NCBI GenBank assembly: GCA_963169885.1
Contig: CAUJFR010000283.1
Location: 1-33,267 of the forward strand
From: Bacteroidota bacterium
GTDB taxonomy: Bacteria > Bacteroidota > Bacteroidia > Chitinophagales > Chitinophagaceae
DNA length: 33,267 nt
Direction: 5' to 3'
Shown here piece by piece: positions 16,630-33,267 of this stretch (within the stretch, counting starts at the first letter, position 1; every line of letters begins with the position of its first letter). The translations under genes and the position numbers were made by a program. The notes under the pieces are model-generated. The model was not told where the DNA came from. It worked only from the letters and a program-made list of their open reading frames with translations, and searched no databases.

Positions 16630-16812
16630 GGTGTCAGGTGTCGGGTGTCAGGAAACAGCCCATTTAGATAGGTGTTCGGTGTTCGCTGTTAGGTGTTGGG
16701 AAACAGCCCCTTATTTAGAAGGTGTTCGGTGTTAGCTGTTAGGTGTTAGGAAACAGCCCCTTATTTAGAAGGTGTTCGGTGTTTGCTGTTAGGTGTTGGG
16801 AACCTTATTTAG
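16630..16812. repeat. 50-bp minisatellite, about 3.7 copies, itself made of GGTGTTN heptads
   Basis: Two full 50-bp units (16671-16720 and 16721-16770, differing at two positions) are flanked by a shorter left copy (16630-16670) and a truncated right copy (16771-16812). Each unit begins with four heptads (GGTGTTC, GGTGTTC, GCTGTTA, GGTGTTG), followed by GGAAACAGCCCCTTATTTAGAA. The left copy carries GGTGTCA, GGTGTCG and GGTGTCA. It lies in the 394-bp gap between plsY and prmA, the only long non-coding stretch in the window. The rest of that gap holds the candidate plsY promoter, a short AT-rich segment and a second heptad tract. Confidence 0.9.
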
Positions 16813-16867
16813 TACTCTCTCAACCCAAAAACCTCAAAAAAAACAATCAGCTGCTCGATTTACGAAC

Positions 16868-16895
16868 TATACCTCGTACTTCGTACCTCGTACCT
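16868..16895 (-). repeat. heptad tract at the 3' end of prmA
   Basis: Reading the minus strand from the prmA stop codon: AGTTAAA, GGTACGA, GGTACGA, AGTACGA, GGTATAG. These are 7-bp units that all begin RGT. The prmA TAA stop lies within the first unit. Confidence 0.75.
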
Positions 16896-17714
16896 TTAAC
16901 TTGCTTCCATTACCAGGCAAATCCAGTTATTCATCACGTCCTTTTTGACCAATTGAAGCGATAATGGTTTTGCCGCATTAACAATATCCTCTTCATCGCT
17001 GATCAGCAGGCCACTCAGCAATAATACCCCCCCTTCATTCAGGTCATTCTTCAGGTGGGCGAGGTTATCGAGAATAACATTCTTATTAATATTGGCAAGA
17101 ATAATATCCGACTTGCCGGCGTCAGCAGCATTATCGGCCTGGTGTAGCCGGATATGACTGCACTGATTGTTCGCACAGTTTTCCGTGGCATTTTCAATGC
17201 TCCAGTCATCATAATCGATGGCATATACATCAGCTGCTCCCCTTTTTTCAGCAAGAATGGCCAGCACGCCTGTGCCGGTACCAAAATCAAATACTTTTTT
17301 TCCGGTAAAATCCAGTTGACGCATCTGCCGCATCATCATGTATGTGGTGGCATGATGCCCTGTTCCAAAACTCATTTTAGGGGTGATCACAATTTCCAGT
17401 TCCACTCCTGCTACCGGTTCATGAAAGCCGGCCCTTACTGCTACAAAATCATCCACGACTACAGGGTCAAAATTAGATTCCCAGACCGCATTCCAGTTCT
17501 GGCTTTCGATGAGTGTGGCAGAAAAAGTAACCAGGTGCGCATCCGCAATGTTCTGCACTTTTTCTTTTTCATAATCCGCTTCCGGAATAAAGGCTTTCAG
17601 CGATGAATCGTTTTCTTCAAACCCTTCATACCCTTCTTCGGATAATTGAGCAATCAATACCTGCTGCAATTCGGTGTCAGTTACCGGAAAGGTGATTTCT
17701 ATGTAATTAGCCAT
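16896..17714 (-). CDS. prmA: ribosomal protein L11 methyltransferase
   Basis: SAM-dependent methyltransferase that trimethylates ribosomal protein L11. 272 residues, slightly shorter than the E. coli enzyme but normal for Bacteroidota. The N-terminal substrate-recognition domain (about 1-90) begins ANYIEITFPV. The catalytic domain has MSFGTGHHATT before motif I VFDFGTGTGVLAI, an acidic ribose-binding strand VYAIDYDDWSIENA, and ILANINKNV as motif IV. It lies 42 nt downstream of pnp, and that gap is filled by the pnp terminator. No separate promoter is visible, so expression may rely on read-through. The 3' end runs into a heptad-repeat tract. Confidence 0.95.
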   Translation of the reverse strand: MANYIEITFPVTDTELQQVLIAQLSEEGYEGFEENDSSLKAFIPEADYEKEKVQNIADAHLVTFSATLIESQNWNAVWESNFDPVVVDDFVAVRAGFHEPVAGVELEIVITPKMSFGTGHHATTYMMMRQMRQLDFTGKKVFDFGTGTGVLAILAEKRGAADVYAIDYDDWSIENATENCANNQCSHIRLHQADNAADAGKSDIILANINKNVILDNLAHLKNDLNEGGVLLLSGLLISDEEDIVNAAKPLSLQLVKKDVMNNWICLVMEAS

Positions 17715-17756: not shown

Positions 17757-19949
17757 TTAGTTAGCGGAATTATCGTCCTGAGCCGGAGGTCTTTGTCCGT
17801 CGCGGGGACCCTGTTCCGGTTTAGGGATCAGGACCTTACGGGAAAGCTTGAACTTACCGGATTTAGGATCCGTTCCGATTAATTTCACTTTCATCATATC
17901 GCCTTCGCGTACGATTCCTTCGAGGGTTTCGAGACGCTTCCAGCTGATTTCACTGATATGTACCAGTCCTTGTTTGCCGGGAAGGAATTCCACAAATGCA
18001 CCGAAAGGCATGATGGATTTAACGGTGGCATCGTAGGTATCACCAACCTGGGGAACAGCAACAATACCCTTGATCCAGGATACGGCTTTATCCACCCCAT
18101 CCTTACTGGTACTGAAGATGCTGATTTCACCACGGCCATTCACCTCTTCGAGGTTGATGGTAGTGCCGGTCTCCCGCTGGATTTCCTGGATCACTTTACC
18201 ACCGGGCCCGATAACGGCACCGATGAATTCTTTATCGATAAACAGTTTCACCATTCTCGGTGCATGTGGTTTCACGTCTGCACGGGCGGCAGGGATCGTG
18301 TTGTACATGGCATCGAGGATATGTAAACGGCCTCTTTTTGCCTGGTCGAGGGCCTGCTGCATGACTTCCATTTTCAGCCCGTCCACTTTGATGTCCATCT
18401 GCACACCGCAGATACCATCCCGGGTACCGGTTACTTTGAAGTCCATATCACCCAGGTGATCCTCATCGCCCAGGATATCAGTGAGGATTGCAAATTTGTC
18501 TCCTTTGGTAATCAGTCCCATGGCGACACCGGAAACGTGCTTGGGAATACCAATACCGGCATCCATCAGGGCTAATGAACCCGCACAAACCGTTGCCATG
18601 GAAGAAGAACCATTTGATTCCAGGATATCACTCACTACACGTACCGTGTAAGGGAAATCACCGGATGGCATCATTTGTTTCAAAGAACGCTGAGCCAGGT
18701 TACCATGCCCTACTTCACGACGGCTTTGTCCACGCATCATCTTGATCTCACCGGTAGAAAACGGCGGGAAATTATAGTGCAGGTAAAATTTGGAATCTAC
18801 AGATTTAGCGGCACTTTCAACCAATAGTTCATCTAAAGGAGTACCTAAAGTAACAGTTGTAATTGATTGTGTTTCACCGCGTGTAAATAAGGCTGCGCCG
18901 TGTGGGGAAGGAAGTACATCGATCTCCATATCCAGCGGGCGAACTGTTTCCAGGTCACGTCCATCCAGCCGTACTCTTTCGTCCAGAATCATATCACGAA
19001 TCACATCATACTGCAGGTCGTGGTAGTAAACTGAGGCCAGTTTCTTGGTCAGATCCGGCAGGTTTTCACCTTCAGCCAGATTAGCGTCCTTTTTCAGGAA
19101 TTCAACCAGTTCCACTTTAATTGCGTCAAAACGGTCACTACGCTCATGCTTACTCAAAGCAGCTTTTGCCACTTCATATACTTTCGGTTGAGCAAACGCA
19201 TATACTTTAGCTTTCAGGGCTTCGTCAGAAGCGGGTTTTGTATACGCTCTTTTGGGTTTTGCACCGGCCATATCACGCAGTTCTTCCTGGGCTTTCACCT
19301 GGATACGGATGGCGTCGTGTGCAATTTCGAGTGCTTTGCAAAGATCAGCTTCGCTGCATTCTTTGGCTTCCCCTTCCACCATCATCAGGTTCTTGTCAGT
19401 AGCGGCAATCAGGAAATCCATATCGGATTTTTCCATTTCGCTGCGGGTAGGGTTTACCACAAACTGTCCATTGACACGGGATACCCGTACTTCAGAGATG
19501 ATTTCCTTGATGGGCACATCGGATACAGCCAGGGCGGCAGATGCAGCCAGACAAGCCATTGCATCCGGCATGATTTCAGGATCGCTGGACATCAACGTCA
19601 CCAGTACCTGAACCTCACATAAATAATCTTCAGGAAATAACGGACGCAGCGCCCGGTCAATCAGGCGGCTGGTCAGCACTTCATAATCGTTCAGTTTAGC
19701 TTCGCGTTTGAAGAAGGATCCGGGAATACGACCGGCGGCCGCAAATTTTTCCTGGTAATCTACCGACAGCGGGAAAAAGCTCTGACCCTCTTTGGGTTCA
19801 GTATTGGCACACACTGTGGCCAGGATCATACAATTGCCCATGGATACGGTAACCGCTCCATCAGCCTGGCGGGCCAGACGACCTGTTTCAATGGTCACCA
19901 TACGACCACCGCCAATATCAAATGTTTTACGAATTTTCTGTTGTAACAT
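17757..19949 (-). CDS. pnp: polyribonucleotide nucleotidyltransferase (PNPase)
   Basis: 3'-5' phosphorolytic exoribonuclease and RNA-degradation enzyme. About 730 residues with the usual order: first RNase PH domain (from DIGGGRMVTIETG), helical linker, second RNase PH domain with the catalytic region FPPFSTGEIKMMRGQSRREVGHG, KH domain (FIGAVIGPGGKVIQEIQ), S1 domain (SIMPFGAFVEFLPGKQGLVHISEI). A short Pro/Gln-rich tail ends the protein. I chose the ATG at 19949; the ORF-track start at 19958 is a TTG three codons upstream. It follows rpsO on the same strand, the classic rpsO-pnp arrangement, with a 263-nt spacer containing a hairpin and a G/C-rich repeat. A strong terminator follows. Confidence 0.97.
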   Translation of the reverse strand: MLQQKIRKTFDIGGGRMVTIETGRLARQADGAVTVSMGNCMILATVCANTEPKEGQSFFPLSVDYQEKFAAAGRIPGSFFKREAKLNDYEVLTSRLIDRALRPLFPEDYLCEVQVLVTLMSSDPEIMPDAMACLAASAALAVSDVPIKEIISEVRVSRVNGQFVVNPTRSEMEKSDMDFLIAATDKNLMMVEGEAKECSEADLCKALEIAHDAIRIQVKAQEELRDMAGAKPKRAYTKPASDEALKAKVYAFAQPKVYEVAKAALSKHERSDRFDAIKVELVEFLKKDANLAEGENLPDLTKKLASVYYHDLQYDVIRDMILDERVRLDGRDLETVRPLDMEIDVLPSPHGAALFTRGETQSITTVTLGTPLDELLVESAAKSVDSKFYLHYNFPPFSTGEIKMMRGQSRREVGHGNLAQRSLKQMMPSGDFPYTVRVVSDILESNGSSSMATVCAGSLALMDAGIGIPKHVSGVAMGLITKGDKFAILTDILGDEDHLGDMDFKVTGTRDGICGVQMDIKVDGLKMEVMQQALDQAKRGRLHILDAMYNTIPAARADVKPHAPRMVKLFIDKEFIGAVIGPGGKVIQEIQRETGTTINLEEVNGRGEISIFSTSKDGVDKAVSWIKGIVAVPQVGDTYDATVKSIMPFGAFVEFLPGKQGLVHISEISWKRLETLEGIVREGDMMKVKLIGTDPKSGKFKLSRKVLIPKPEQGPRDGQRPPAQDDNSAN

Positions 19950-20085
19950 GTTTTTCAATTTTTGGGCGTTGCACCCAGTGAAGAATTTGATCAGGAGAAT
20001 TTGAACTGTTTATACCCGGAATCAGGCAACGGCAGAACAGCATATGGCTATTAAAACGTCAGCAACCGATATGTATAAAAACAGT

Positions 20086-20116
20086 TATTCCCAACATCCG
20101 GAAGACATTGGGAATA
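20086..20116 (-). promoter_or_regulatory. stem-loop in the rpsO-pnp intergenic leader
   Basis: Nine-bp inverted repeat TATTCCCAA/TTGGGAATA (20086-20094 and 20108-20116) with a 13-nt loop, about 140 nt upstream of the pnp ATG. In E. coli a hairpin in the pnp leader is the site of RNase III cleavage and PNPase autoregulation. An equivalent role here is inference from position only. Confidence 0.45.
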
Positions 20117-20170
20117 GTATTATAAAACTTGCTTTTCTTAACGAAAGAAAACTTCAGGTTTAAAGACTCT

Positions 20171-20213
20171 TCCCAAGTCCCCTTTTGGGGGATTTAGGGG
20201 GCCGGAAAGGCCT
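20171..20213. repeat. REP-like palindromic element between rpsO and pnp
   Basis: Contains AGTCCCCTTTTGGGGGATTT followed by AGGGGGCC and a small GGCC-GGAAA-GGCC hairpin next to the rpsO stop codon. I recognise the core TCCCC...GGGGGATTTAGGGGGC as a sequence interspersed between genes in many Bacteroidota genomes. It may act as the rpsO 3' stem-loop. Confidence 0.55.
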
Positions 20214-20482
20214 TATTTCCTGATACCAAGTTTCTCAATCAGCTGGCGGTAACCAGTCAGGTTCTGCTTCTGCAGGTAATTCAGTAAACGTTTACGTTTA
20301 CCTACCATTTTCATCAGTCCGCGGTGAGTAGAGAAATCTTTTTTGTTTTGCTGGAGGTGACCACTGATCTGGCTGATACGCTCAGTCAGCAGGGCAATTT
20401 GTCCTTCAATGGATCCGGTGTTCTTGGCAGAACCCGCAAAGGTGGTTAAAACGGTCGCTTTTTTTTCTTTAGTTAAAGGCAT
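20213..20482 (-). CDS. rpsO: 30S ribosomal protein S15
   Basis: 89 residues, the exact family length. It binds 16S rRNA helix 22 early in small-subunit assembly. The family signature is complete: GSAKNTGSIEGQIALLTERI (about 17-36), then HLQQNKKDFSTHRGLMKMVGKR with the conserved His, Lys and Arg contacts, and the C-terminal LLNYLQ...YRQLIEKLGIRK. It has the best-defined promoter type in the window (see 20531-20561), with a leader of about 40 nt. It is followed by pnp on the same strand. Confidence 0.98.
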   Translation of the reverse strand: MPLTKEKKATVLTTFAGSAKNTGSIEGQIALLTERISQISGHLQQNKKDFSTHRGLMKMVGKRKRLLNYLQKQNLTGYRQLIEKLGIRK

Positions 20483-20530
20483 CTTTTTAATTTTTAAATT
20501 TCATCCGATTTGCATCTTGTAATAAGGCGG

Positions 20531-20561
20531 CAAAGGTAAGACGGATTCTGCTAACAGCAAA
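20531..20561 (-). promoter_or_regulatory. rpsO promoter, Bacteroidota consensus
   Basis: On the minus strand TTTG (20558-20561), exactly 19 nt, then TACCTTTG (20531-20538). Both boxes and the spacing match the Bacteroidota primary-sigma consensus TTTG-N19-TAnnTTTG. Confidence 0.82.
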
Positions 20562-20626
20562 AGCTTTCCCTGCCTTTTTTTACGGTCATTTTACAGGCTC
20601 TCCTGCCTGATTATCAATCTATAACC

Positions 20627-20634
20627 TAATTTTG
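20627..20634 (+). promoter_or_regulatory. -7 element of the miaE-like gene, implying a leaderless mRNA
   Basis: TAATTTTG, an exact TAnnTTTG match, ends five bases before the ATG at 20640. Bacteroidota transcripts usually start about 4-7 nt after this box, which would be at or next to the A of the start codon. The -33 region is weak (no TTTG). Confidence 0.5.
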
Positions 20635-20639
20635 CCTTC

Positions 20640-21251
20640 ATGGAAGAATTATCCCAGGACACCCGTAACATTCTGGGGCTGCAATTGCCCACGGATCCCC
20701 GCTGGGTTGACCTGGCCGGATTATCGCTGGAAGAGATACTGACCGACCATGCCTATTGTGAACAAAAAGCGGCAACTACCTGTATTTCACTGATTCAGCG
20801 TTATAGCAGCCGGGTTAAACTGGTTGCGGCCCTTGCGCCGATCGTAACGGAGGAGTGGGGACATTTCCGGCTGGTGCTGGCTGAACTGGAAAAGCGAAAA
20901 CTCGCCTTGGGAAAACAACGGAAGGATGAATATGTAAATGCCCTGATCGACTTTCAGCAGAAAGGCGGCGACAGTGAAGGCCGGATGCTGGATCAGTTAC
21001 TTACCATGGCACTGATTGAAGCCCGCAGTTGCGAACGGTTCAAGCGGCTGAGTGAGGGTTTGCAGGATCCTTATATGCAGAAATTTTATCGCCGCTTTAT
21101 GGAAAGTGAAGCGGGACATTATACCCTTTTTATTGAACTGGCCGAAACCTATATCGACAAGGAAAAAGTAAGGGCCCGATGGAAAGAATGGCTGGTCTAT
21201 GAAGCATCCGTTATGCTATCCATCGATATCCGGGGCGATCGTATCCATTGA
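20640..21251 (+). CDS. miaE: tRNA-(ms2io6A37)-hydroxylase, MiaE family
   Basis: Non-haem di-iron monooxygenase of the ferritin-like superfamily that hydroxylates the isopentenyl group of ms2i6A at tRNA position 37. 203 residues, all helical, with the four iron-ligand helices visible: DHAYCEQKAA (about 36-45), VTEEWGHFRLV (about 77-87), IEARSCERF (about 131-139) and SEAGHYTLF (about 160-168). The Glu and His pattern (E, ExxH, E, ExxH) fits the family. The two upstream modification enzymes, MiaA and MiaB, are not in the window. The gene appears to start at or very near its transcription start site. Confidence 0.9.
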   Translation: MEELSQDTRNILGLQLPTDPRWVDLAGLSLEEILTDHAYCEQKAATTCISLIQRYSSRVKLVAALAPIVTEEWGHFRLVLAELEKRKLALGKQRKDEYVNALIDFQQKGGDSEGRMLDQLLTMALIEARSCERFKRLSEGLQDPYMQKFYRRFMESEAGHYTLFIELAETYIDKEKVRARWKEWLVYEASVMLSIDIRGDRIH

Positions 21252-21331
21252 TCTGCCAGTTTCTTTTATTTATTTACCGCAAACGATTGTAGCGTTTTTG
21301 CATGTACTGATGAATTAATTTCATACAGTAT

Positions 21332-22399
21332 ATGATGCAAGCTGATTGCCAGGAAGCAGTATATGCTTTATTACCAGCAGGCCACCCGTACACGGTGGAA
21401 CCTCTATCAGGCGGGTTGATCAATCATACCTTTAAAGTAACGGATCTGCAAACCGGGGAATCTTTTCTTTTACAGAAAATAAACCGGCAGGTATTCCCGG
21501 ATCCGGAAAAGATCCAGGCAAACTACCAGCAGCTCTGGCAGTTTTTGGCTGAAAAGTCCATGCCGCTTTTTATACCGGAAATGAAATTTTTTAACGGTAG
21601 TAAAAACCTGTTTACGGATCGAACTGATCAATGCTGGCGGTCCTTTGAATTTATCGGTTCAGGTTTGCAGCTCAACGGTACGGAAGTTCCGGCGCAGGCT
21701 GCTGCAGTAGCGGAAACATTTGCCCGTTTTACCGCCTCCTTTCATCAGCTGGATAGCACTTTACTACATCGGATCCTGCCGGGATTTCATGATGTGAAGC
21801 AACGGTTTGATCAGTTCACTGGTTCGTTAACAGGCGCTCCCACCACACGCCTTGAAAAAGCGGCTATTCTGATCAGTGAATTAAAGAAAAGGCAACGATA
21901 TGCCGGCTTATACCAGCAGTTTACGGCAGATCCTGATTTCAAGTTCCGTGTGATGCATCATGATGCAAAAATTGCCAATGTACTTTTTGACCGACAGTCA
22001 GGAAAAGTGATCTGTCCGGTGGATCTGGATACAGTTATGCCCGGTTATTTCTTTTCCGACCTGGGTGATATGATCCGGTCAATGGCCGGCACCACAGATG
22101 AAAATTCCACCGATTTTGACCGGATACAGATCCGGCCTGCTATTTATCAGTCAATAATCGATGGATATACAAGGGGAATTAATGAGTGGCTGTCCGGGCC
22201 GGAGAGAGCGTATCTCCATGCGTCCGGAATCCTCCTGATTTATATGCAGGCCCTGCGTTTTATGACCGATTATCTCCGGAATGATTCCTATTACAAGATC
22301 AATTACCCTGAACAAAATTTTGACCGGGCAAAAAACCAGCTGGTTTTATTAAACAGACTGGAGGAATTCCTCGCAGATAACTATAAATTTACATGCTGA
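21332..22399 (+). CDS. APH-fold phosphotransferase, N-acetylhexosamine 1-kinase-like
   Basis: 355-residue kinase of the aminoglycoside-phosphotransferase/choline-kinase fold. The N-lobe begins PLSGGLINHTFKV and FLLQKINRQVFPDPEKI, a pattern shared with NahK-type N-acetylhexosamine 1-kinases. The catalytic loop is VMHHDAKIANVLF (HxDxxxxN type, about residues 209-221) and the metal-binding segment VDLDTVMPGYFFSDLGDM (about 231-248). A resistance function is unlikely: the gene sits 40 nt upstream of galactose mutarotase on the same strand, which suggests phosphorylation of a galactose- or hexosamine-type sugar at C1. Substrate identity is inference. The ATG at 21335 is an equally possible start. 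Confidence 0.78.
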   Translation: MMQADCQEAVYALLPAGHPYTVEPLSGGLINHTFKVTDLQTGESFLLQKINRQVFPDPEKIQANYQQLWQFLAEKSMPLFIPEMKFFNGSKNLFTDRTDQCWRSFEFIGSGLQLNGTEVPAQAAAVAETFARFTASFHQLDSTLLHRILPGFHDVKQRFDQFTGSLTGAPTTRLEKAAILISELKKRQRYAGLYQQFTADPDFKFRVMHHDAKIANVLFDRQSGKVICPVDLDTVMPGYFFSDLGDMIRSMAGTTDENSTDFDRIQIRPAIYQSIIDGYTRGINEWLSGPERAYLHASGILLIYMQALRFMTDYLRNDSYYKINYPEQNFDRAKNQLVLLNRLEEFLADNYKFTC

Positions 22400-22439
22400 C
22401 CAACCGGGTCAGGGAACCACGAACCACACAACTCAAAGT

Positions 22440-23489
22440 ATGCCCCTGCATAAAACGTTTTGCTTCCCCGCTGCATCTGGAAAAGATGTATATCTGTTCA
22501 CCCTGCGTAATGTAGCCGGAACAGAAGCCCGTATCACGAATTACGGTGGAATAATCACTTCTTTTTCGGTCCCTGCTTCCCAGGATACCCGGAACGATAT
22601 TGTGCTGGGATTTGATAAAGTGGAAGACTATCACTCCCCTGCTTACCTGGCACAATACCCCTATTTTGGTTGTGTGGTCGGTCGGACCGCGAACCGGATC
22701 AGGAATGCCAGCTTTGAAATAGACGGTAAACCGAATCCCGTAACAGCCAATTTTGGTAAACACCAGCTGCATGGAGGAAACGAAGGATTTGATAAAAAAA
22801 TCTGGGATATAACCGGCTTCGGTGAATTCCCTTCACCCTGGGTGGAAATGAAATACCATAGTCCGGATGGAGAAGAAGGCTATCCGGGCAACCTGGATGT
22901 ATGGATTCGTTTTGAACTGACTGATGACAACGAACTCAGTTATAGTTTTACGGCCAGAACGGATAAAACGACAGCCGTTAACCTCACTCACCATGGGTAC
23001 TTTAACCTGAATAACGGACAGGGAGATATTAAGGATTATGAACTCAAAATTTATAGTTCACAGGTACTGGATCAGGATGAGGAATTATGTACCACCGGCA
23101 CCGTAACACCGGTAAAAGATACTGTTTTTGATTTCCGGAGTTTTACCCGGATTGGTGAACGGCTGGAAACAGTACCCGAATTTGATAAGAGTTATGTGGT
23201 GGATAAAAACAATGATCCGGCCGGATTAGCCCTGATGGCTGAGGCCCGTTGTGCTGCCTCTGGATTATTGCTCCAGGTCTATGCCACTGATCCCGTTGTC
23301 CACTTTTATACCGGTAAATGGATCCCTGAAATGACCGGGAAAAACGATACATGTTATGGCGCGTTCTCCGGTTTTTGCCTCGAAACACAGATACATCCCA
23401 ATGCCATTAATATCCCGCATTTCCCGACAATGCTGCTGAAGCCGGGAGAAGAGTATAAGAGTAAGACGGTGTATAAAGTGATAAGTTAA
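22440..23489 (+). CDS. galM: aldose 1-epimerase (galactose mutarotase)
   Basis: Interconverts alpha and beta anomers of galactose and other hexoses, feeding the alpha form to a sugar kinase. 349 residues with the family landmarks in order: ITNYGGIITSF, VVGRTANRI (substrate Asn/Arg), HQLHGG (first His), LTHHGYFNL (catalytic His near 181), a D/F segment TVFDFR, and the C-terminal catalytic Glu in GFCLETQIHPNAIN. No signal peptide, so cytoplasmic. It follows the kinase gene by 40 nt in a likely operon. The last codons and stop merge into a 7-bp-periodic tract. Confidence 0.95.
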   Translation: MPLHKTFCFPAASGKDVYLFTLRNVAGTEARITNYGGIITSFSVPASQDTRNDIVLGFDKVEDYHSPAYLAQYPYFGCVVGRTANRIRNASFEIDGKPNPVTANFGKHQLHGGNEGFDKKIWDITGFGEFPSPWVEMKYHSPDGEEGYPGNLDVWIRFELTDDNELSYSFTARTDKTTAVNLTHHGYFNLNNGQGDIKDYELKIYSSQVLDQDEELCTTGTVTPVKDTVFDFRSFTRIGERLETVPEFDKSYVVDKNNDPAGLALMAEARCAASGLLLQVYATDPVVHFYTGKWIPEMTGKNDTCYGAFSGFCLETQIHPNAINIPHFPTMLLKPGEEYKSKTVYKVIS

Positions 23490-23504
23490 AAGTTGTAAGT
23501 TCGA
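23477..23504 (+). repeat. heptad tract at the 3' end of galM
   Basis: Four consecutive 7-bp units beginning AGT: AGTGATA, AGTTAAA, AGTTGTA, AGTTCGA. The galM TAA stop lies inside the second unit, so the tract begins in coding sequence and continues beyond it. Confidence 0.7.
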
Positions 23505-23523
23505 ATTCTCTCTGTAAAGCAGG

Positions 23524-23554
23524 AAACTGTTGATGATTTTAGATTCAACAGTTT
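23524..23554. terminator. stem-loop between convergent galM and GSCFA genes
   Basis: Ten-bp stem AAACTGTTGA/TCAACAGTTT (23524-23533 and 23545-23554) with an 11-nt loop, midway between two convergent genes and between two heptad tracts. It lacks a clear U-tract on either side, so the terminator role is tentative. Confidence 0.4.
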
Positions 23555-23567
23555 AGAAGGTGTATTT

Positions 23568-23610
23568 ACTCCCGACTACCGACTTCTTACTCCCGACTAA
23601 AATACTCCCG
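23568..23610 (-). repeat. heptad tract at the 3' end of the GSCFA gene
   Basis: Minus-strand units AGTCGGG, AGTAAGA, AGTCGGT, AGTCGGG; on the plus strand ACT recurs at 23568, 23575, 23582, 23589 and 23596, exactly 7 bp apart. A further CGGGAGTA copy sits just inside the coding end, shifted by one base. The stop codon TAA is within AGTAAGA. Confidence 0.8.
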
Positions 23611-24588
23611 TTCTTCCCTCAGATCCAGAAACGGATATTTCTCCATCAGCACTTTTACCTTCTCCGCATGATCCGCTAAAAACTTACGGTGGGCGTTGGT
23701 GTCCGGCTGAAAAGGTTTATGCCGGCGGGCAATCATAATCTTTTTTACCTCCTGCATCAGTAGCCGGGTTTCTTCTTCAATGCAATAGTGGCCAAATTTC
23801 TCCAGTACAAATTCGGTGGCGGCATAGTTTGGATGAACCAGATCGATATCATAAAACCGGTAATCCCGCAATACATCGATCACCAGTTCATAAGCCGGGA
23901 AATAATAAATAAAATCATGGGCTGAAACCAACTGGTGAACGGCTTCAATCAACCGGGCCTTGCTCCGGTTATTCTCCACCACCCCATCCCTGATATGCCT
24001 GACAGGACTAATCGTAAATAGTAGTTTAATCGAAGGATTGAATTGCCGGAGTCGGGTGATTGTACCTGTCAGTAGTCGGCTGATCTCCTGTATTTCCAGC
24101 ATTTCCTTATCAAACCAGGCCGAAGGGGCACGGTGACAATTGGCCACGGCTGCATGCAAAGAGGAACTGGCCCTGTTTGCTGCGCCGGTCAGGCGATAGG
24201 TGTAGGATGATCCCAATGTGATGATCAGCCATCCGGCCTGTTTCAAAAAATCATGGGCGGTCTGACGGGATTGATTCATACCCGCCAGGGCTTGCTCAGG
24301 ATTGGTATGTGAAAAACGGGAATGGTGCATCCAGCTATGCCAGACTTCATTCAGCTGAAAGAGGTCGGCTGTGGTAAGCTCCCCATTATCCATATACCAA
24401 TCCAGGCTCCGGCATACACTGTCCGGCCCGAATAAAATTCCATTGGGATTTTGCAGCACCGGGAATTTCAGCTCACCCAGGGCATTGCCGATATGTTCGG
24501 TAAAACAGGAACCGATCAGCATTATTTGATCCTGGTACCGGATCGGTTCAGGCAGTTTTTCCAGCGCTATATCCAGGATAAAGTCCAT
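23587..24588 (-). CDS. GSCFA-domain SGNH-type hydrolase
   Basis: 333 residues of the GSCFA family, named for a motif seen here as IGSCFTEHIGNAL (about 25-37), which supplies the Ser of an SGNH-like esterase. Further family blocks are LQNPNGILFGP, HSWMHHSRF, ITLGSSYTYRL and VANCHRAPS. No signal peptide, so cytoplasmic. GSCFA proteins are presumed acyl-esterases of unknown substrate, common in Bacteroidota. Its ATG follows the stop codon of the HMG-CoA lyase gene by two bases, so the two are cotranscribed and probably coupled. The last residues (YFSRE) are encoded by DNA that already belongs to a 7-bp-periodic tract. Confidence 0.88.
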   Translation of the reverse strand: MDFILDIALEKLPEPIRYQDQIMLIGSCFTEHIGNALGELKFPVLQNPNGILFGPDSVCRSLDWYMDNGELTTADLFQLNEVWHSWMHHSRFSHTNPEQALAGMNQSRQTAHDFLKQAGWLIITLGSSYTYRLTGAANRASSSLHAAVANCHRAPSAWFDKEMLEIQEISRLLTGTITRLRQFNPSIKLLFTISPVRHIRDGVVENNRSKARLIEAVHQLVSAHDFIYYFPAYELVIDVLRDYRFYDIDLVHPNYAATEFVLEKFGHYCIEEETRLLMQEVKKIMIARRHKPFQPDTNAHRKFLADHAEKVKVLMEKYPFLDLREEREYFSRE

Positions 24589-24590
24589 GA

Positions 24591-25454
24591 TCAGTGCTTA
24601 AAAAGTTCAGCGGCCATTTGAGTACAGGCATTCAGGATAACCGGATCCATATCCGGTAACAGGTTTCTTTCCCTGAAATATTCAATCATCCGTTCGCTAT
24701 CCATATTACCTACCAGTTCATCATTGGCCATCGGACAGCCGCCGATTCCTTTCAGTGCCCCGTCAAAACGAAGACAGCCTGCTTTTACTGCGGCATCCAG
24801 TTTTTCCCGCCAGTTGTCGGGTGTCGAGTGCAGGTGCACGCCGATCTCAGTTCCCGGAAGTGATTCCACCAAATACCGGGTCATCGAATAAACCTGTTCC
24901 GGACTGGCCAGTCCTACCGTATCTGCCAGTGAAATAATGCCGATATCCATTCCCACGAGCCGGTTGACCCATTCAAATACCTGTTCTTCGTCATAGGGAT
25001 CGCCATACGGATTTCCAAAGCCCATGGAAATATAAATCACGAGTTGTTTACCTGATTTTACACAGATTTCCTGGATCTCTTCCACCCTTGTCAGGGATTC
25101 ACGGATGGTACTGTTGGTGTTTCGCTGCTGAAAAGTTTCGGAAACGGAGAAGGGGTAGCCCAGGTAACTGATTTCATCAAATACAACGGCATCCGTTGCA
25201 CCCCGGAGATTTGCAACAATTGCAAGTAACCTGGTGGAGGTACCTGAAAGATCCAGTTGCCCGATCACTTCACGGGTATCCGCCAGTTGGGGAATAGCTT
25301 TGGGTGAAACAAAACTGCCAAAATCGATGGTATCAAAACCGGCTTTCAGCAACAGATTGATATAAGCGGCTTTCTGCGTGGCAGGAATGGGTGTCTTCCA
25401 GCCCTGCATGGCATCCCGCGGACATTCGATCAATCTGACCTGATTTGAAATCAT
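24591..25454 (-). CDS. hydroxymethylglutaryl-CoA lyase family protein
   Basis: TIM-barrel lyase of the HMGL-like/DRE-TIM family, cleaving 3-hydroxy-3-methylglutaryl-CoA to acetyl-CoA and acetoacetate in leucine degradation. 287 residues, near the standard length of 290-300. Seen: ECPRDAMQG at residues 10-18 (catalytic Arg/Asp of the usual EVGPRDGLQ), DFGSFVSPKAIPQL, the metal-binding IGVHLHSTP and the catalytic Cys loop KGIGGCPMANDELVGN. These fit HMG-CoA lyase better than citramalate or isopropylmalate synthase. It lies between an HTH regulator (29 nt upstream) and the GSCFA hydrolase (2 nt downstream). No other leucine-catabolic genes are in the window. Confidence 0.88.
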   Translation of the reverse strand: MISNQVRLIECPRDAMQGWKTPIPATQKAAYINLLLKAGFDTIDFGSFVSPKAIPQLADTREVIGQLDLSGTSTRLLAIVANLRGATDAVVFDEISYLGYPFSVSETFQQRNTNSTIRESLTRVEEIQEICVKSGKQLVIYISMGFGNPYGDPYDEEQVFEWVNRLVGMDIGIISLADTVGLASPEQVYSMTRYLVESLPGTEIGVHLHSTPDNWREKLDAAVKAGCLRFDGALKGIGGCPMANDELVGNMDSERMIEYFRERNLLPDMDPVILNACTQMAAELFKH

Positions 25455-25483
25455 TTCATGCGAAGTTAAGACCGTCTGGCTAA

Positions 25484-26476
25484 TTACTTTGAAAGGTTAT
25501 GAACCTTATCCCGAAGGGAGTTAAAAAAGCGGTTCCTGTCTTTCTCGCCGGTTTTACTGATCAGGGTTGAACGGCTAAGCAGTGTATTAAATGATTCCAT
25601 GACTTTATCCCGGAACCGGATATCCCTTGTAAATAAATAATGAAATACACTGTAAGTAACCATCGTTAAGCTATTGCCATCCAGATTAATGACCATATTA
25701 TTACTGCCCAGGATAATCTCATTTACATAAAACTGAATGGGTGCTTTATAAGATACTTCATTGGCCCCTGGCAGAAATTTCACCCCTTTTTCAGTCTGCA
25801 GATCCAGATGATCAATCAGTTGCTGGAATGAATCAAGTACACGGTCATATTCCTTACGTGAACTGAAATTGCCGGATTCCTTATAATAGACCAGCTGATT
25901 GATTGTACTCTGCAGACTTTCCTGGTTCCATAACTCCACACAGGGGATCTGGTTAAATTCTTCCAGGACTTTCTGGCCTAACTGGAAACACTCATGGTAC
26001 GGAAACTCTTCATAAGAGAATGTCTTATTCCGGAGTTTTTCCTGATTATTAATTGTTTTGGACCAGAAAAAAGTTTTAAAAGCGGCCATTTCCGGAAACA
26101 GAAAGAAATTCCAGATGGTGGATTCTTTACAGAGATAAAACATCTCCCGCTTTTCAAACGAATTGAAATAGTGAAATTGCCGGAGCATTCCCTTCAGGTA
26201 ATCCTCAAACTCCGGCGTACTTCCGCTTAATCCGGGGGCATCAAACAAAACAGAATCAGTCTGTAACTGAATGAGTTTGTCGAGTGACAAACGGTATTTT
26301 TCGCAAATAACACGTAACTCAGTAAGTGTGATCGGCTTTTCACCCCTTATCCGGCGGTAAACACTATCTGCACTGAGATCCAGTAATGAACATAGTTCAT
26401 CTACCAGTGAAAGGTGTGCCGGCAGGTTCTCTTTCAGGTGCTGAAACAATTGTTGTTGAAGCTCAATAGTTTCCAT
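25484..26476 (-). CDS. HTH transcriptional regulator of Bacteroidota type with unknown C-terminal domain
   Basis: About 330 residues from the ATG at 26476 (METIELQQQLFQHL); the longer ORF to 26605 adds a non-conserved AT-rich extension. The N-terminus (about 20-75) reads as a helix-turn-helix of Cro/C1 or BetR type: LVDELCSLLDLSADSVYRRIRGEKPITLTELRVICEKY. The remaining 250 residues are helical with many aromatics (FHYFNSFEKREMFYLC, WNFFLFPEMAAFKTFFW) and contain no recognised ligand domain. It is the first gene of a run with HMG-CoA lyase and GSCFA hydrolase and is divergent from the caspase-like gene with 237 nt between. It may regulate either direction. Function inferred only from the HTH. 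Confidence 0.72.
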   Translation of the reverse strand: METIELQQQLFQHLKENLPAHLSLVDELCSLLDLSADSVYRRIRGEKPITLTELRVICEKYRLSLDKLIQLQTDSVLFDAPGLSGSTPEFEDYLKGMLRQFHYFNSFEKREMFYLCKESTIWNFFLFPEMAAFKTFFWSKTINNQEKLRNKTFSYEEFPYHECFQLGQKVLEEFNQIPCVELWNQESLQSTINQLVYYKESGNFSSRKEYDRVLDSFQQLIDHLDLQTEKGVKFLPGANEVSYKAPIQFYVNEIILGSNNMVINLDGNSLTMVTYSVFHYLFTRDIRFRDKVMESFNTLLSRSTLISKTGEKDRNRFFNSLRDKVHNLSK

Positions 26477-26713
26477 TGCATAAGAAATATACGAAAAATC
26501 CGTAATGTTCAAAAAAATGTTTACGGAAAACTGCAAAAGGCTGCCCGAAACACATTTTATAATACGGGAAAAATCCAAATCTGGATCACCTGGCAGAAAA
26601 ATCACTGATAACTACCATTTTAGATTATAGTAATGCTAAAACCAATTATTTCAAACGGATGTACCTGCTGATTTTTGATAGGTCAACAAACCAAATCATC
26701 TTAAAGCAACACC

Positions 26714-27592
26714 ATGCAAACTAAAACGATCATTTGCCTGATACTGTTTCTGGGATTCCAGTTTCATAAAGGTATTTGCCAGCAAACTGAAGTAAATATT
26801 TCATCAGACGTAACAGAAAAAAAGAAAATCAACTTCTTTGTAGTGAGTAAAAGAAAAAAAGGGAAACTGGATATGGCGACCCGTTATAATGTGTTTCGAT
26901 CCAAAGTAAGAGGCTTCTTCTGTAAAAGACAATTTGTTTCCATCGTTGCACGTGATGCAAAACACGCATCGTTAAAAATAACTAAGCGCCTGCAAGCTAA
27001 TGATGCCAGGTTAGGTACCATCTGGTTTGATTCTCATGGTATGTATAAAAAGGGATATTCATTATTTTATATCGGAAGTGATGAAATAAGTTACAAAACT
27101 CTAAAAGACAGTACTCTTATTAAATACTTATCGGGCTTAACCTCCTATGCGGATGCAGAATCAAGATTGGTTATCGGATCCTGTTATGGAGGTGCCACTT
27201 ATAATCGGTCTTCGGTTGACTATAAGGACACGACAAGAATGAATGGAGATTCGCTGATGATTGCCATTGGCAATATAGTACACTGCGGCAAAGTATATGC
27301 ATCTGAAAGCTGGGTAATGACCAAACCTGGTCTATTCCGTCGCAGACCATCCGTTGGAGGATTTCCCGGACGCAAATTGTTCAGGGATTTATGTTACGAA
27401 CCGGCCTGGAAAAATATGGGAATCTGGAATAAGTATGATGCAGAAATCGGAGTATTAAGCCGAAGTAATCCGGTAGCACTCGACAGGTATGGGAATCTGA
27501 TCATCCGTGGAGTTCCATTCAAACACGAAAAAACGTTCAGGAAAAGCTACCACAAAAAATCATCCCGGCTTCAGACAAATCTGTATAAGTAA
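26714..27592 (+). CDS. secreted protein with caspase-like (clan CD) His/Cys motif, function unknown
   Basis: 292 residues with a signal peptide (IICLILFLGFQFHKGICQQ). Residues about 98-165 look like the catalytic half of a caspase/C80/DUF4347-type fold: a hydrophobic strand ending in His-Gly (LGTIWFDSHG, His108), a region with a short helix, then a second strand ending in Cys (SRLVIGSCYGG, Cys157). The 49-residue His-Cys spacing is in the usual range for clan CD peptidases. The C-terminal 100 residues (ASESWVMTKPGLFRRRPSVGGF and onward) are basic and aromatic. The gene is more AT-rich than its neighbours, which suggests acquisition. No family is recognised with certainty, and peptidase activity is a hypothesis. 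Confidence 0.6.
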   Translation: MQTKTIICLILFLGFQFHKGICQQTEVNISSDVTEKKKINFFVVSKRKKGKLDMATRYNVFRSKVRGFFCKRQFVSIVARDAKHASLKITKRLQANDARLGTIWFDSHGMYKKGYSLFYIGSDEISYKTLKDSTLIKYLSGLTSYADAESRLVIGSCYGGATYNRSSVDYKDTTRMNGDSLMIAIGNIVHCGKVYASESWVMTKPGLFRRRPSVGGFPGRKLFRDLCYEPAWKNMGIWNKYDAEIGVLSRSNPVALDRYGNLIIRGVPFKHEKTFRKSYHKKSSRLQTNLYK

Positions 27593-27748
27593 AACAGGTA
27601 CAAGTATATAAGTATTTGAAAGTGATTATAAGGGAAGGTCTGCAAGTTTAAAAGCACGACGGATGAAATTGAATGAATAGAATCCGGGAAAATTAACTTG
27701 AAATCCTGGTTCTTAACACTGAACGTTAAACAGATAAATTCGCTGGTT

Positions 27749-28366
27749 ATGAATAAATATCTCATGCTTCTGATGTTAACCGTTCTTAGTTTTAAACTGG
27801 ATGCGCAGCAGCAGTTAAAAACAAAGTTTATAAGTTTCTCCGTAATGAATACCCACACAGCTCTTCCCTTCGGGAAGTTTACCGGTATATTTTACAAAGC
27901 GTTTCATCCGGGTATTGAAATTTCGTATGGGAAAAACTTCGCTGTAAAAAACAAACATGACTGGTATTACGATTTCCGGCTTGCCTGTTTCTATCACCGG
28001 TTTGTACAGTATGGTATACCGGTTTACAGCAACCTGGGTTATCGGTATAAATTTAATCAGCACTGGTCTGCTTTCACTGAAGCCGGTGCCGGATACCTGC
28101 ATTCCATTCCTGCTACGGCCAAACTACGGTTGAATGAGGCAGGTGACTATGAAAATAATAAAGGCCCCGGACGTATGCAGGCCAATGCCTGCTTCGCATT
28201 GGGAGCAGGTTATCAGTTGCAAGGAGCTTCCGCCAATTCGCTCAATCTGTTTATCAGTTATCAGCAACGGCTGCAATTTCCTTTTGTGAAGTCCTATGTA
28301 CCCCTTCTTCCCTATAACAGTTTTCTCCTGGGATTATCCAGACCACTGACCAGAAAAAACAAATAG
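27749..28366 (+). CDS. small secreted protein, probable outer-membrane beta-barrel
   Basis: About 205 residues from the ATG at 27749 (MNKYLMLLMLTVLSFKLDAQQ), a clear signal peptide; the ORF track begins earlier at a TTG with no export signal. The mature part alternates short amphipathic strands rich in aromatics (WYYDFRLACFYHRF, SNLGYRYKFNQHWSAF, LNLFISYQQRLQFPF). This suggests an eight- to ten-stranded outer-membrane barrel. No catalytic motif. It lies 156 nt after the caspase-like gene and 16 nt before the serine-hydrolase gene, so it probably shares a transcript with the latter. Confidence 0.62.
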   Translation: MNKYLMLLMLTVLSFKLDAQQQLKTKFISFSVMNTHTALPFGKFTGIFYKAFHPGIEISYGKNFAVKNKHDWYYDFRLACFYHRFVQYGIPVYSNLGYRYKFNQHWSAFTEAGAGYLHSIPATAKLRLNEAGDYENNKGPGRMQANACFALGAGYQLQGASANSLNLFISYQQRLQFPFVKSYVPLLPYNSFLLGLSRPLTRKNK

Positions 28367-28382
28367 CCTTTAAACTATTCGT

Positions 28383-29570
28383 ATGAAAAAAATCGTGCTT
28401 TACCTTTTTGTACTGCCGCTCTTCCCTTGCTCTTGTAAAAAGGCACAGATCAGCATTACCACCCAGGTGGGTATCAGCAGCCCATGGTCTGACAGCAGCA
28501 GCCGTCATCCGAAAAATACCGCTTTCCTGAACCTGCTGGAAAAATATAAAAAGAAGGGGTTTCCGGGTATCTCCCTCCTGGTCAGGGATGCATCCGGTAC
28601 CTGGATGGGTGCCGCCGGTAAAGCGGATCTTTCAAATGATATCGATTTTAATCCGGGTACAGTATCCAAAGCAGCGAGTATCACCAAATTTTTCATAGGC
28701 ACCCTGGTTTTTCGCCTGATGGAAGATTCTGCTAATACCGGAATGGGATATGCCGCACTGCACCGCAAGGTAAAAGACTGGTTGCCGGCCAGGATTACAG
28801 ACAAACTGGCCAACGGGAATCAGATCACGCTCGGACATTGTTTGAAACATGAAACGGGCATTGCGGACCTGATCAATGAAGACGCTTTTTACCTGGCTGT
28901 TCTCAATAATCCAACTAAAAAATGGGGACCAGCGGAATTACTGGAGTATATCTATGATAAACCGGCCGAATTTTCAGCCGGTGATACCGCAGTTTATTCC
29001 AATACCAATACAGTACTTGTCACCATGATCCTGGAGGCACAGACAGGAAAAAAGCATAGTCAGTTGCTCCACCAGTATGTACTGGAGCCATTGGGTTTGA
29101 AAAATACATTTTATCAGCCACATGATCTGTTGCCACGAACCACTGCACAGGGGTATTATGATCTCTATAATAATGGCAGTATTGTGAATGTATCTAATCT
29201 TGTAACCGGCAGCGGGAATGGATATGGCGGGTTATACAGTAATATTTATGATCTGTACACTTTTATTGACGCGGTGCTGATCCGTGAAACTTTCCTGAAG
29301 CCGGCATCACTGACCCTTATGAAAAGCTGGGGAAAAAAGGACGACAGTAATTACTACGGGTATGGAATTCAGCAATCATATATTCGGGGTACCGACTTTG
29401 GAATCGGACATAAAGGAAGGGATCTCGGTTATTCAGCCAACCTGTTTTTCTTTCCCACACGGGGTGTTACGCATATCTTCTTTGTCAATTACGGTACCGA
29501 TGCTGACAGCGGGCTTAAAGATATTTTCTTTGAATTTGTAGACGAAATGGTAGCACTGAGCCTGCAATGA
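28383..29570 (+). CDS. serine hydrolase lipoprotein, beta-lactamase class C/PBP4-like fold
   Basis: 395 residues with an N-terminal lipoprotein-type signal (FPCSCKK). All three penicillin-recognising active-site elements are visible and well spaced: SITK at 99-102 (nucleophile Ser99, general base Lys102), YSN at 205-207, HKG at 343-345 in the place of KTG. Members include D-aminopeptidases, esterases and endopeptidases as well as class C beta-lactamases. The HKG triad and absence of other AmpC features argue for an esterase/peptidase role over antibiotic resistance. It ends exactly where the convergent rlmB gene ends, with no spacer. Confidence 0.88.
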   Translation: MKKIVLYLFVLPLFPCSCKKAQISITTQVGISSPWSDSSSRHPKNTAFLNLLEKYKKKGFPGISLLVRDASGTWMGAAGKADLSNDIDFNPGTVSKAASITKFFIGTLVFRLMEDSANTGMGYAALHRKVKDWLPARITDKLANGNQITLGHCLKHETGIADLINEDAFYLAVLNNPTKKWGPAELLEYIYDKPAEFSAGDTAVYSNTNTVLVTMILEAQTGKKHSQLLHQYVLEPLGLKNTFYQPHDLLPRTTAQGYYDLYNNGSIVNVSNLVTGSGNGYGGLYSNIYDLYTFIDAVLIRETFLKPASLTLMKSWGKKDDSNYYGYGIQQSYIRGTDFGIGHKGRDLGYSANLFFFPTRGVTHIFFVNYGTDADSGLKDIFFEFVDEMVALSLQ

Positions 29571-30338
29571 TCAGCCTTTCATCCGCTGGGTCATCGCTTC
29601 ATACAGGATCATTCCGGTGGCCACAGATACATTCAGGCTTTCGAAATCACCTTTCATGGGAATCCTGATTTTCTCATCACATATTTTCATCAGTGCAGGG
29701 TAAACGCCTTTTTCTTCTCCACCCAATACAATCGCACAGGGGATGGTAAAATCGACCTCACTGATTGTCTTTTCAGCCGTCATTTCACTGGCAAACACCA
29801 GGATACCGTTCAGGTGAAGTTCATCGACCGCTTTCATCAGACTGTTTACACGGCAAACCGGAATCGTTTCCAGCGCGCCGGCGGAAGTCAGGATGGCATC
29901 TTCATTCAGGGCCCCTACTCCTTTATCGGGTATGATAATGGCCTGCACCCCGGTACACAGAGCTGTACGGGCAATTCCCCCGATATTCCGGATATCCGTG
30001 ATGCCATCAAGGATCAGGAATAAAGGTGCTTCCCCGCTTTCTGTGACAAAGGAAATTACATCCTGCAGGGATTGGTATTGTACTTTGGCTATTTGTGCCA
30101 CACAGCCTTCATGACCGGTAATATTAAAACTGTTGAGTTTAGCTGCTGGTACATAATTGATGGGTACACCAGCCTGGGAAGCCAGGTGCTTTAGTTCCCG
30201 TATATCGGTACCCTGGGCCATTGTATCCAGGTAAATCCGGTCGAGTTGCTGTCCGTTTCGTAATGCATCCATTACAGCCGGGCGGCCAATGACGAGTGTA
30301 TTTTTTTTGGGACGATGGGGTTGTCTGAATTGTTTCAC
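29571..30338 (-). CDS. rlmB: 23S rRNA 2'-O-methyltransferase, TrmH/SpoU family (RlmB type)
   Basis: Knotted SPOUT methyltransferase; RlmB methylates the 2'-OH of G2251 in 23S rRNA. 255 residues: an N-terminal substrate-binding domain (about 1-85, GRPAVMDALRNGQ...HEGCVAQIA), then the SPOUT motifs NIGGIARTALCTGVQAI (motif 1), IVLGGEEKGV (motif 2) and LNVSVATGMILYE (motif 3). Start codon is GTG at 30338, as there is no upstream in-frame ATG near the conserved N-terminus. The gene follows metK on the same strand but is separated from it by a good terminator. Confidence 0.92.
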   Translation of the reverse strand: MKQFRQPHRPKKNTLVIGRPAVMDALRNGQQLDRIYLDTMAQGTDIRELKHLASQAGVPINYVPAAKLNSFNITGHEGCVAQIAKVQYQSLQDVISFVTESGEAPLFLILDGITDIRNIGGIARTALCTGVQAIIIPDKGVGALNEDAILTSAGALETIPVCRVNSLMKAVDELHLNGILVFASEMTAEKTISEVDFTIPCAIVLGGEEKGVYPALMKICDEKIRIPMKGDFESLNVSVATGMILYEAMTQRMKG

Positions 30339-30365
30339 CGTGTAAAATTAAGCGATTCGTGATGT

Positions 30366-30408
30366 GGAAATAAAAAACCCTGAAAAGACAGGATCTTCCA
30401 GGGTTTTT
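30366..30408 (-). terminator. metK terminator
   Basis: Ten-bp stem AAAAACCCTG/CAGGGTTTTT (30373-30382 and 30399-30408), 17 nt after the metK stop codon. On the minus strand it is followed by a T-rich stretch (TTTATTTCC). Confidence 0.85.
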
Positions 30409-30425
30409 AAATGAGACTGTTCAGT

Positions 30426-31682
30426 TTATTTAAGACCGAAAGCTTTTTTCACTTTGCTGACATAATCCAGTTTCTCCCAGGTAAAGAGTTCAACTTTACG
30501 GGTTACCGTTTTGCCATCAGGAGAGGTGAAGGTTTTCTCAACCACCTGGGGCAAACGACCCATATGTCCGTAAGCAGCAGTTTCGCTGTATATCGGATTA
30601 CGCAGTTTCAGGCGTTGTTCAATAAAGTAAGGACGCATGTCAAATACGGCTTCCACGATCTTCCCGATTTCTCCGTCGGTCAGGTCCACTTTTGCGGTAC
30701 CATAAGTATTCACGTTAATACTGGTAGGCTTGGCCACTCCGATCGCGTATGAAACCTGTACAAGCACTTCACTGGCTACGCCGGCTGCTACCAGGTTCTT
30801 GGCAATATGACGGGTGGCATAAGCGGCAGAACGATCTACTTTAGAAGGATCTTTACCACTGAAGGCTCCACCTCCGTGTGCACCTTTTCCACCGTAGGTA
30901 TCCACAATGATTTTACGGCCGGTAAGACCGGTATCACCATGCGGACCACCGATTACAAACTTACCAGTTGGGTTAACGTGGTATTTGATATCGCTGTTGA
31001 ACAGCTTTGCGTACTTCTTGTATTTGGTCTTCATCCGGGGAATCAGGATGTTGATCACATCGCTTTTAATACGGGCCAGCATTTTAGCTTCGCTGTCAAA
31101 ATCATCGTGCTGGGTTGAAATAACGATCGCATCAATACGTACGGGCTGATTATTGTCATCATATTCCAGGGTTACCTGGCTTTTGGCATCCGGACGCAGG
31201 TAAGGCATTTTAGAGTTCTTTTCGCGACGGATAGCAGCCAGTTCGATCAGGAGATTATGCGCCAGGTCAAGTGCCAGGGGCATATAGTGCTCTGTCTCGT
31301 TGGTGGCATAGCCAAACATCATTCCCTGGTCACCGGCACCCTGCTCTTCTTTCTTTTTGCGGTCTACACCCTGGTTGATATCGGAAGATTGTTCGTGAAT
31401 AGCAGACAATACCCCGCAACTGCTGGCTTCAAACATGTATTCACTCTTGGTATACCCTATTTTACGGATGACTCCGCGGGCGATTTCCTGAACGTCCAGG
31501 TAAGCTTTTGACTTTACTTCACCGGCAAGCACCACCTGTCCGGTAGTAACCAGGGTTTCGCAAGCCACTTTTGACTGTGCATCAAAAGCCAGGAAGTTAT
31601 CAATGAGTGCATCGGAAATCTGGTCGGCCACTTTATCAGGATGACCTTCACTTACGGATTCAGAGGTAAATAAATAAGGCAT
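30426..31682 (-). CDS. metK: S-adenosylmethionine synthetase
   Basis: Makes SAM from methionine and ATP; SAM feeds the methyltransferases encoded in this window (PrmA, RlmB). 418 residues, slightly longer than the E. coli enzyme as in other Bacteroidota. Diagnostic motifs: [21 protein letters not shown] at the N-terminus, the family signature [12 protein letters not shown] (residues 116-127) and [23 protein letters not shown]-like sequence near 265-287 with metal and phosphate contacts. The promoter (31705-31735) is a perfect Bacteroidota consensus and leaves a leader of about 17 nt, too short for a SAM riboswitch. A good terminator separates it from rlmB. Confidence 0.98.
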
Positions 31683-31704
31683 GAGTTAATAGTTTTTAAG
31701 GACG

Positions 31705-31735
31705 CAAAGATAAGGGGGCATTTATAAAGAACAAA
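31705..31735 (-). promoter_or_regulatory. metK promoter, Bacteroidota consensus
   Basis: On the minus strand TTTG (31732-31735), exactly 19 nt, then TATCTTTG (31705-31712). The -33 element overlaps the arm and U-rich tail of the upstream DUF4270 terminator. Confidence 0.85.
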
Positions 31736-31762
31736 GCCCTTCCCGTGAAAGGAAGGACTTTT
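31721..31762 (-). terminator. terminator of the DUF4270 gene, overlapping the metK promoter
   Basis: Stem AAAGCCCTTCC/GGAAGGACTTT (31733-31743 and 31751-31761) with one C/A mismatch, followed on the minus strand by the T-rich run GTTCTTTATAAAT. It lies 20 nt after the DUF4270 stop codon. Confidence 0.72.
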
Positions 31763-31782
31763 GAACATATTTTGATCACCCG

Positions 31783-33222: not shown

Positions 33223-33267
33223 AAAGAAATTTTATAATCGGGGTTAGTGATTTTTATTTACCTGCAA

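Follow-up and report, generated by a model that had tools for sequence, protein, structure and literature searches.

Tandem heptanucleotides dispersed in the genome, the STRR repeats, were reportedly described in cyanobacteria by Mazel et al. in 1990, and their function is said not to have been established. In Xanthomonas and Nostoc, intergenic heptads of the types GGGAATC (GGGNATC) and GGGGAYT, respectively, were reported by Rehm et al. 2015 (PMC4692102), who also cite repeats of Calothrix, and no function was established for them. On the coding strand they stand no more than 50 bp from the stop codon or overlap it, and on the non-coding strand they are found upstream of starts; they form G-quadruplexes (G4s), with four units preferred, and 83% of them are kept between relatives, in the same gene context and with changed lengths (PMC4692102). 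Convergent pairs of these heptads number 70 in Xcc and are few in Nostoc, and the heptads are under-represented between divergent genes (PMC4692102). TAACTGA direct repeats were described by MacGregor 2015 (PMC4679880) in intergenic regions of Beggiatoaceae, Cyanobacteria and some Bacteroidetes, together with mixed heptads in Microcystis; in Maribeggiatoa they stand just upstream of start codons, in one orientation, and neither stop-codon anchoring nor a rule of facing pairs was reported for them.

The heptads considered here come from a window of 33,267 nucleotides, the whole stretch of DNA that was analysed, in a Chitinophagaceae genome (a MAG of 3.64 Mb in 494 contigs, with 84% completeness). 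Like those of Xanthomonas and Nostoc, they are tandem 7-nt intergenic units that meet or overlap the stop codon on the coding strand, and they occur in convergent pairs; unlike them, they are mostly not G4-competent, belong to several families with 8-mers besides, and have a tail and a core common to many arrays. With the cyanobacterial STRR they share the form of dispersed tandem heptanucleotides, but units and phylum are others, and the STRR are not known to have such pairing or a tail. TAACTGA, read on the other strand, is an AGTNNNN unit of the AGTTATC type, and those repeats too are intergenic heptads, whereas the units at the GSCFA gene are AGTCGGG, AGTAAGA, AGTCGGT and AGTAAAT, and the tracts abut stops rather than starts. 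A preliminary description of this locus knew of no function described for such an arrangement: the arrangement had in fact been published, and it is true that no function was established there (Rehm et al. 2015, PMC4692102). Sense-strand placement at stops and convergent pairs were thus already known from Xanthomonas. New in the present case are the range of unit families without G4 ability, the 8-mers, a common tail and core in arrays whose unit number is fixed, and, in Bacteroidota, an inward rule with hardly an exception.

Heptad tracts at three stop codons of the window

The features of the window are the following.

16630-16802, plus strand: GGTGTTA heptads with ACAGCCCCTTATTTA tail, 50-bp period (TRF, tail search)
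16834-16886, plus strand: next to the prmA arm, a second hit of the core profile (nhmmer, E = 3.2e-8), from which window sequence was excluded
16867-16901, minus strand: prmA-side heptad arm, AGTTAAA GGTACGA GGTACGA AGTACGA GGTATAG, with the prmA stop in unit 1 (tract scan)
16896-17714, minus strand: prmA, ribosomal protein L11 methyltransferase (Pfam PF06325, E 2.5e-48)
22440-23489, plus strand: galM, aldose 1-epimerase (Pfam PF01263, E 3.9e-74)
23477-23504, plus strand: galM-side heptad arm, AGTGATA AGTTAAA AGTTGTA AGTTCGA, with the galM TAA stop in unit 2 (sequence, tract scan)
23512-23569, minus strand: tail and linker separating the GSCFA and galM arms, together the dispersed core, which reads ACACCTTCTAAACTGTTGAATCTAAAATC... 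(nhmmer, alignment to other copies)
23564-23598, minus strand: GSCFA-side heptad arm, AGTCGGG AGTAAGA AGTCGGT AGTCGGG AGTAAAT (sequence, tract scan, shuffles)
23587-24588, minus strand: gene of a GSCFA-family protein (Pfam PF08885, E 5.5e-81)

On the plus strand, ACT recurs at 23568, 23575, 23582, 23589 and 23596, an exact 7-bp spacing; a further ACT, at 23604, misses this phase by one base. The window has a single match to the pattern AGT(N4)x5, and 100 dinucleotide-preserving shuffles of it had none. The stop codon of the GSCFA gene (TAA, 23589-23587, minus strand) falls inside unit 2, AGTAAGA, so that the five AGT positions in strict period with the stop inside a unit, as first described, are seen directly in the sequence; the name "AGTCGGG heptads" holds for the AGT start of the units, but AGTCGGG itself makes up only two of the five. 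The last codons of the protein, S-R-E-stop, are encoded by the array: the gene ends YFSRE-stop here and YFSQT-stop in many relatives, the array replacing the last codons with the length unchanged. The tract was absent from the orthologues checked (61 loci), with the exception, by eye, of L179, in which interrupted AGTGGGG heptads are found.

The galM stop (23487-23489, plus strand) likewise lies inside its tract, which ends 63 bp before the GSCFA tract on the minus strand, the two arms facing each other. Together with prmA, the tract scan gives three genes of the window with the stop inside an RGTNNNN tract, as had been proposed, and Pfam confirmed all three genes. AGTACGA heptads occur at the same end of prmA in the sister genome G011. 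The last array of the repeat at 16630-16802 faces the prmA arm, forming an inward pair at 16771-16900. This repeat beside prmA is a 50-bp tandem of GGTGTTA heptads and ACAGCCCCTTATTTAGAAGG tail in 3.5 copies.

Period, placement, pairing and build of the arrays in the genome

In the whole genome AGT5 gave 186 matches against 25 for the reversed-pattern control, and GGT5 gave 52 against 25. Positional statistics were taken from 788 kb (22% of the genome), partly picked for containing tracts, and from smaller samples of relatives. When no motif was chosen in advance, period 7 dominated this sample with 128 arrays, 118 of them intergenic; period 8 followed with 28 and, multiples of 7 and 8 aside, every other period had at most 7. 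RGT in phase is the commonest core, in 86 of the 128 period-7 arrays, beside the families AGAAGCN, GTTAGCT, GTCAGAT and AATAATG, and the 8-mer units, RGTTNAYA, keep the RGT start. Across the order, AGT5 is present in 112 of 160 genomes, in amounts that differ greatly between species, and in some genomes the same five-unit string stands at many loci, such as AGTATCAAGTAGTGAGTATCAAGTATCAAGT in G063, which looks like copying. Arrays of the period-8 type (GTTGACAG, GTTGATAA) were seen in L034, L045, L046, L050, L095, L129, L135 and others, also as facing pairs.

To place the tracts relative to genes we used a simple codon-usage caller written for the analysis, and a tract was counted as being at a stop when its start fell between −20 and +10 nt relative to the end of the stop codon. 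By this measure 36 of 78 intergenic RGT tracts in the 788 kb start at a sense stop, against 6.6 ± 2.4 under random placement in the same gaps on a random strand (maximum 17 in 2000 trials), and a single one of the 78 lies antisense at a stop. The enrichment of RGT heptads at stops anticipated in the preliminary description is thus real, genome-wide and specific to the strand. The commonest offset is −2 from the end of the stop, where T + AGT gives TAG, and TAG is the stop of 20 of 35 tract genes, as compared with 85 of 550 other genes. Where a sense start follows downstream, no fewer than 18 nt, and mostly more than 90, separate it from the tract. Offsets from the stop are similar in G011 and in the more distant G018 of the same genus; by contrast, 80 loci from other genera held 9 intergenic tracts, none of them at a stop, so that the expected link between tracts and gene ends in related species holds within the genus and is not seen in these few tracts from outside it.

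Neighbouring arrays within 300 bp were taken as pairs and oriented by G/C skew alone. Of these, 51 point inward, 1 outward and 36 in the same direction, and the inward to outward ratio is 14:1 in G011, 11:0 in other Chitinophagaceae (80 loci), 5:0 at other loci and 2:0 in G021. Inward pairs are found between tandem, convergent and divergent genes and also at 5' sides; since the rule holds between tandem and divergent genes too, it is not merely the outcome of two genes each carrying a sense tract. Partner arms are more alike than random arms (0.395 vs 0.256 ± 0.025), the arms of many pairs, including the galM/GSCFA copy, come from different unit families, and roughly one array in two stands without a facing partner. 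In the cores of some pairs (L046 9138-9375, L045 204-348 and, in G018, L072 1372-1530) a hairpin followed by a T-run resembles a two-way terminator.

Many arrays, whatever their unit family, are followed by the tail (A)ACAGCCCCTTCTNAG, and a fixed build recurs in many of them: four AGTNNNN units, AGTCAAC, and then ACAGCCCCTTCTNAG. Among tail-linked arrays exactly four AGTNNNN units precede AGTCAA[CT] in 16 of 23 copies, and in 7 of 9 in G011, and the lengths of AGT runs peak at five units (44 runs, against 21 with four and 5 with six). Unit types follow one another in an order that depends only weakly on position (p = 0.008 here, with no such effect in the sister), and on this ground we rejected the arrays as exact copies of one master. 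The tail ACAGCCCNTYCTNAG has 62 copies here and 0 for the reversed control; in the genus, with 42 genomes searched, G011 has 45, G048 9, G018 2, G015 1 and the other 37 none, and counts that are high in this genome and its sister and 0-2 in most others fit a recent amplification. A weakly conserved core of about 80 bp, which starts with the tail, is dispersed at many loci. Its nhmmer profile, built with no sequence of the window, matches the GSCFA-galM linker at 23569-23512 (17.2 bits, E = 1.5e-4). The galM and GSCFA tracts had at first been taken as separate stop-codon tracts: that they lie on opposite strands, 64 bp apart, is correct, but the inward pairing of 51:1 and the dispersed core in the linker speak against their independence.

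Proposed origin and comparison with the sister genome

On balance we think it probable that the GSCFA tract belongs, as one of two converging heptad arms, to a dispersed element that accumulates at gene 3' ends. This reading draws on the period, the inward rule, the sense anchoring at stops, the common tail and core and the amplification in this species and its sister, all of which were observed. The element would be intergenic, about 100-130 bp long, with two opposite, inward-facing arrays built of degenerate 7-mers or, in some copies, 8-mers; each arm would measure about 30-35 nt and the core between them mostly 20-110 bp; the GSCFA and galM tracts would be the two arms of one copy, filling the convergent gap from stop to stop. 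Copying may be the way in which it spreads, the element probably being a non-autonomous passenger of the REPIN or MITE type, with arms that some protein would recognise in one polarity. Copies would persist where they are least harmful, at the 3' ends of transcription units, the outer end of the arm merging with the stop codon or possibly supplying it (T + AGT to TAG).

REPs are single palindromes of 20-40 bp with a GTAG or CGTC tag and a link to RAYT; MITEs are marked by defined terminal inverted repeats and by target duplications. The arrays resemble both in being short, dispersed and intergenic, often in inverted pairs and sometimes near stops, as E. coli REPs are; in contrast to REPs and REPINs, their arms are non-palindromic tandem heptads with no GTAG/CGTC-tagged palindrome, and in comparison with the terminal inverted repeats of MITEs, partner arms are more alike than random, yet many pairs mix families. 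For the element itself we could identify neither a transposase nor a target-site duplication, nor a clean empty site. The genome has three Y1_Tnp (RAYT-type) genes, with arrays near two of the three loci; the high array density explains this proximity, and no specific link between these genes and the arrays was seen. Against the reading also count the arrays that lack a partner, the pairs with arms of mixed families, the weak conservation of the core and the weak dependence of unit order on position. Of the earlier idea of a mobile repeat, the dispersed repeat, with its common tail and core and its amplification in the lineage, is supported, and transposition itself stays hypothetical.

In the sister genome G011 some contigs are 99.7% identical to the window and others 83-93%. 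The near-identical ones may be shared strain sequence, and cross-binning is a possible reason for the mixture; MAG assemblies break at repeats, and the arrays break them here. In the diverged stretches heptads occur in both genomes with changed units, at the prmA end, at two L098 ends and at one L138 end; the same gene ends carry different units in the two genomes, hence arrays keep their place while units turn over. A stretch of about 84 bp with an array is present here and absent in G011, with no clear target duplication in the alignment. Contigs G011:C258 and G011:C172 (99.7%) correspond to window positions 17809-23479 and 24512-33267, with breaks at 23479, within the galM tract, and at 24512.

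Alternative explanations and wider occurrence

The main rival to the dispersed element is an RNA function, whereas slippage and G4 formation each explain too little alone. As a 3'-UTR element, the transcribed heptads after the stop would either be bound by a protein or pair with the opposite arm into a fold, and in this way slow ribosomes or protect the 3' end of the mRNA, effects reported for E. coli REPs close to stop codons. The abutment on stops in the sense orientation only (36 vs 1) is what such a role would lead one to expect; several arrays are situated between a stop and a hairpin resembling a terminator (4 of 51 spacers; shuffles gave 0.2), paired elements have a median fold z of −2.7 when compared with simple shuffling of their letters, and REPs within 15 nt of the stop stall ribosomes (PMC12306157). 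However, the galM-GSCFA copy shows no unusual folding (z = 0.25), no terminator was detected at it, the inward rule holds also between divergent genes and at 5' sides, and the tracts are not conserved at orthologous gene ends, all of which makes this explanation rather unlikely. An RNA hairpin between the galM and GSCFA arms was rejected, folding being in no excess and the 10-bp AAACTGTTGA / TCAACAGTTT stem being local and not kept in other copies. No Rfam match to a known RNA family was found in the window, and no intrinsic terminator (GC-rich hairpin plus T-run) at 23300-23800 on either strand; a role in 3' end formation, suggested earlier, is thus unsupported at this locus. In part the sense placement follows from geometry, since any arm that borders a gene end is directed away from the gene; still, an abutment on the native stop of 36 against 6.6 exceeds simple insertion tolerance, a point against the dispersed element as proposed, and hints at selection or at a link to the end of translation or transcription.

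Replication slippage with a 7-nt step, leaving simple tandem repeats tolerated only outside coding regions, is an unlikely explanation in our view. Heptameric repeats are over-represented in bacteria, and slippage by the polymerase footprint has been put forward (PMC4692102); long arrays of 16-17 units exist here, and unit sequences shift together between the sister genomes. Against this, arrays cluster around one set unit number in their length, and slippage predicts neither the 51:1 facing pairs, nor the tail and core common to many loci, nor the orientation at stops. Very improbable is the reading of the tracts as G-quadruplex heptads acting through G4 formation as in Xanthomonas and Nostoc, for although the AGTCGGG arrays carry G-runs and follow the placement rule of Rehm et al., a G3+ quadruplex motif occurs in only 4 of 97 tracts and not in the GSCFA tract, and G-tracts are missing from the galM tract as well as from most families (AGTTATA, AGTACGA, AGTAATG), so that G4 was rejected as a general mechanism.

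The same placement and facing rule, found in Bacteroidota with mostly non-G4 units, argues that the rule is independent of G4s, and its extension beyond G4 units points to a common way of making or keeping arrays. We regard as doubtful that a single class of elements spans several phyla, with facing arrays of 7- or 8-nt units that may drift freely in sequence but keep their length, their number and their polarity, the RGT- or G-rich strand leading inward. If this were so, some machinery, probably a protein reading a short anchor every 7 nt directionally, would copy or maintain elements at gene ends. The inward rule and the build of four units plus tail provide sharp, countable predictions for any complete genome.

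By eye, the tail GGAACAGCCCCTTCTAAGA (e.g., L046 9171) looks like GGAACACCTCCTTTCTAGA, which we take to be the 3' end of the 16S rRNA of Bacteroidota, a likeness that may be due to chance. Further dispersed modules, ATCCGTGTTTATCCGTGTTATCCGTGGCC, TTTCGAGCGCAGCGAGAAATCTTG and TCACCCTGAGCGTGCCGAAGGGTG, were observed downstream of the tails in L043, L142, L150 and L321.
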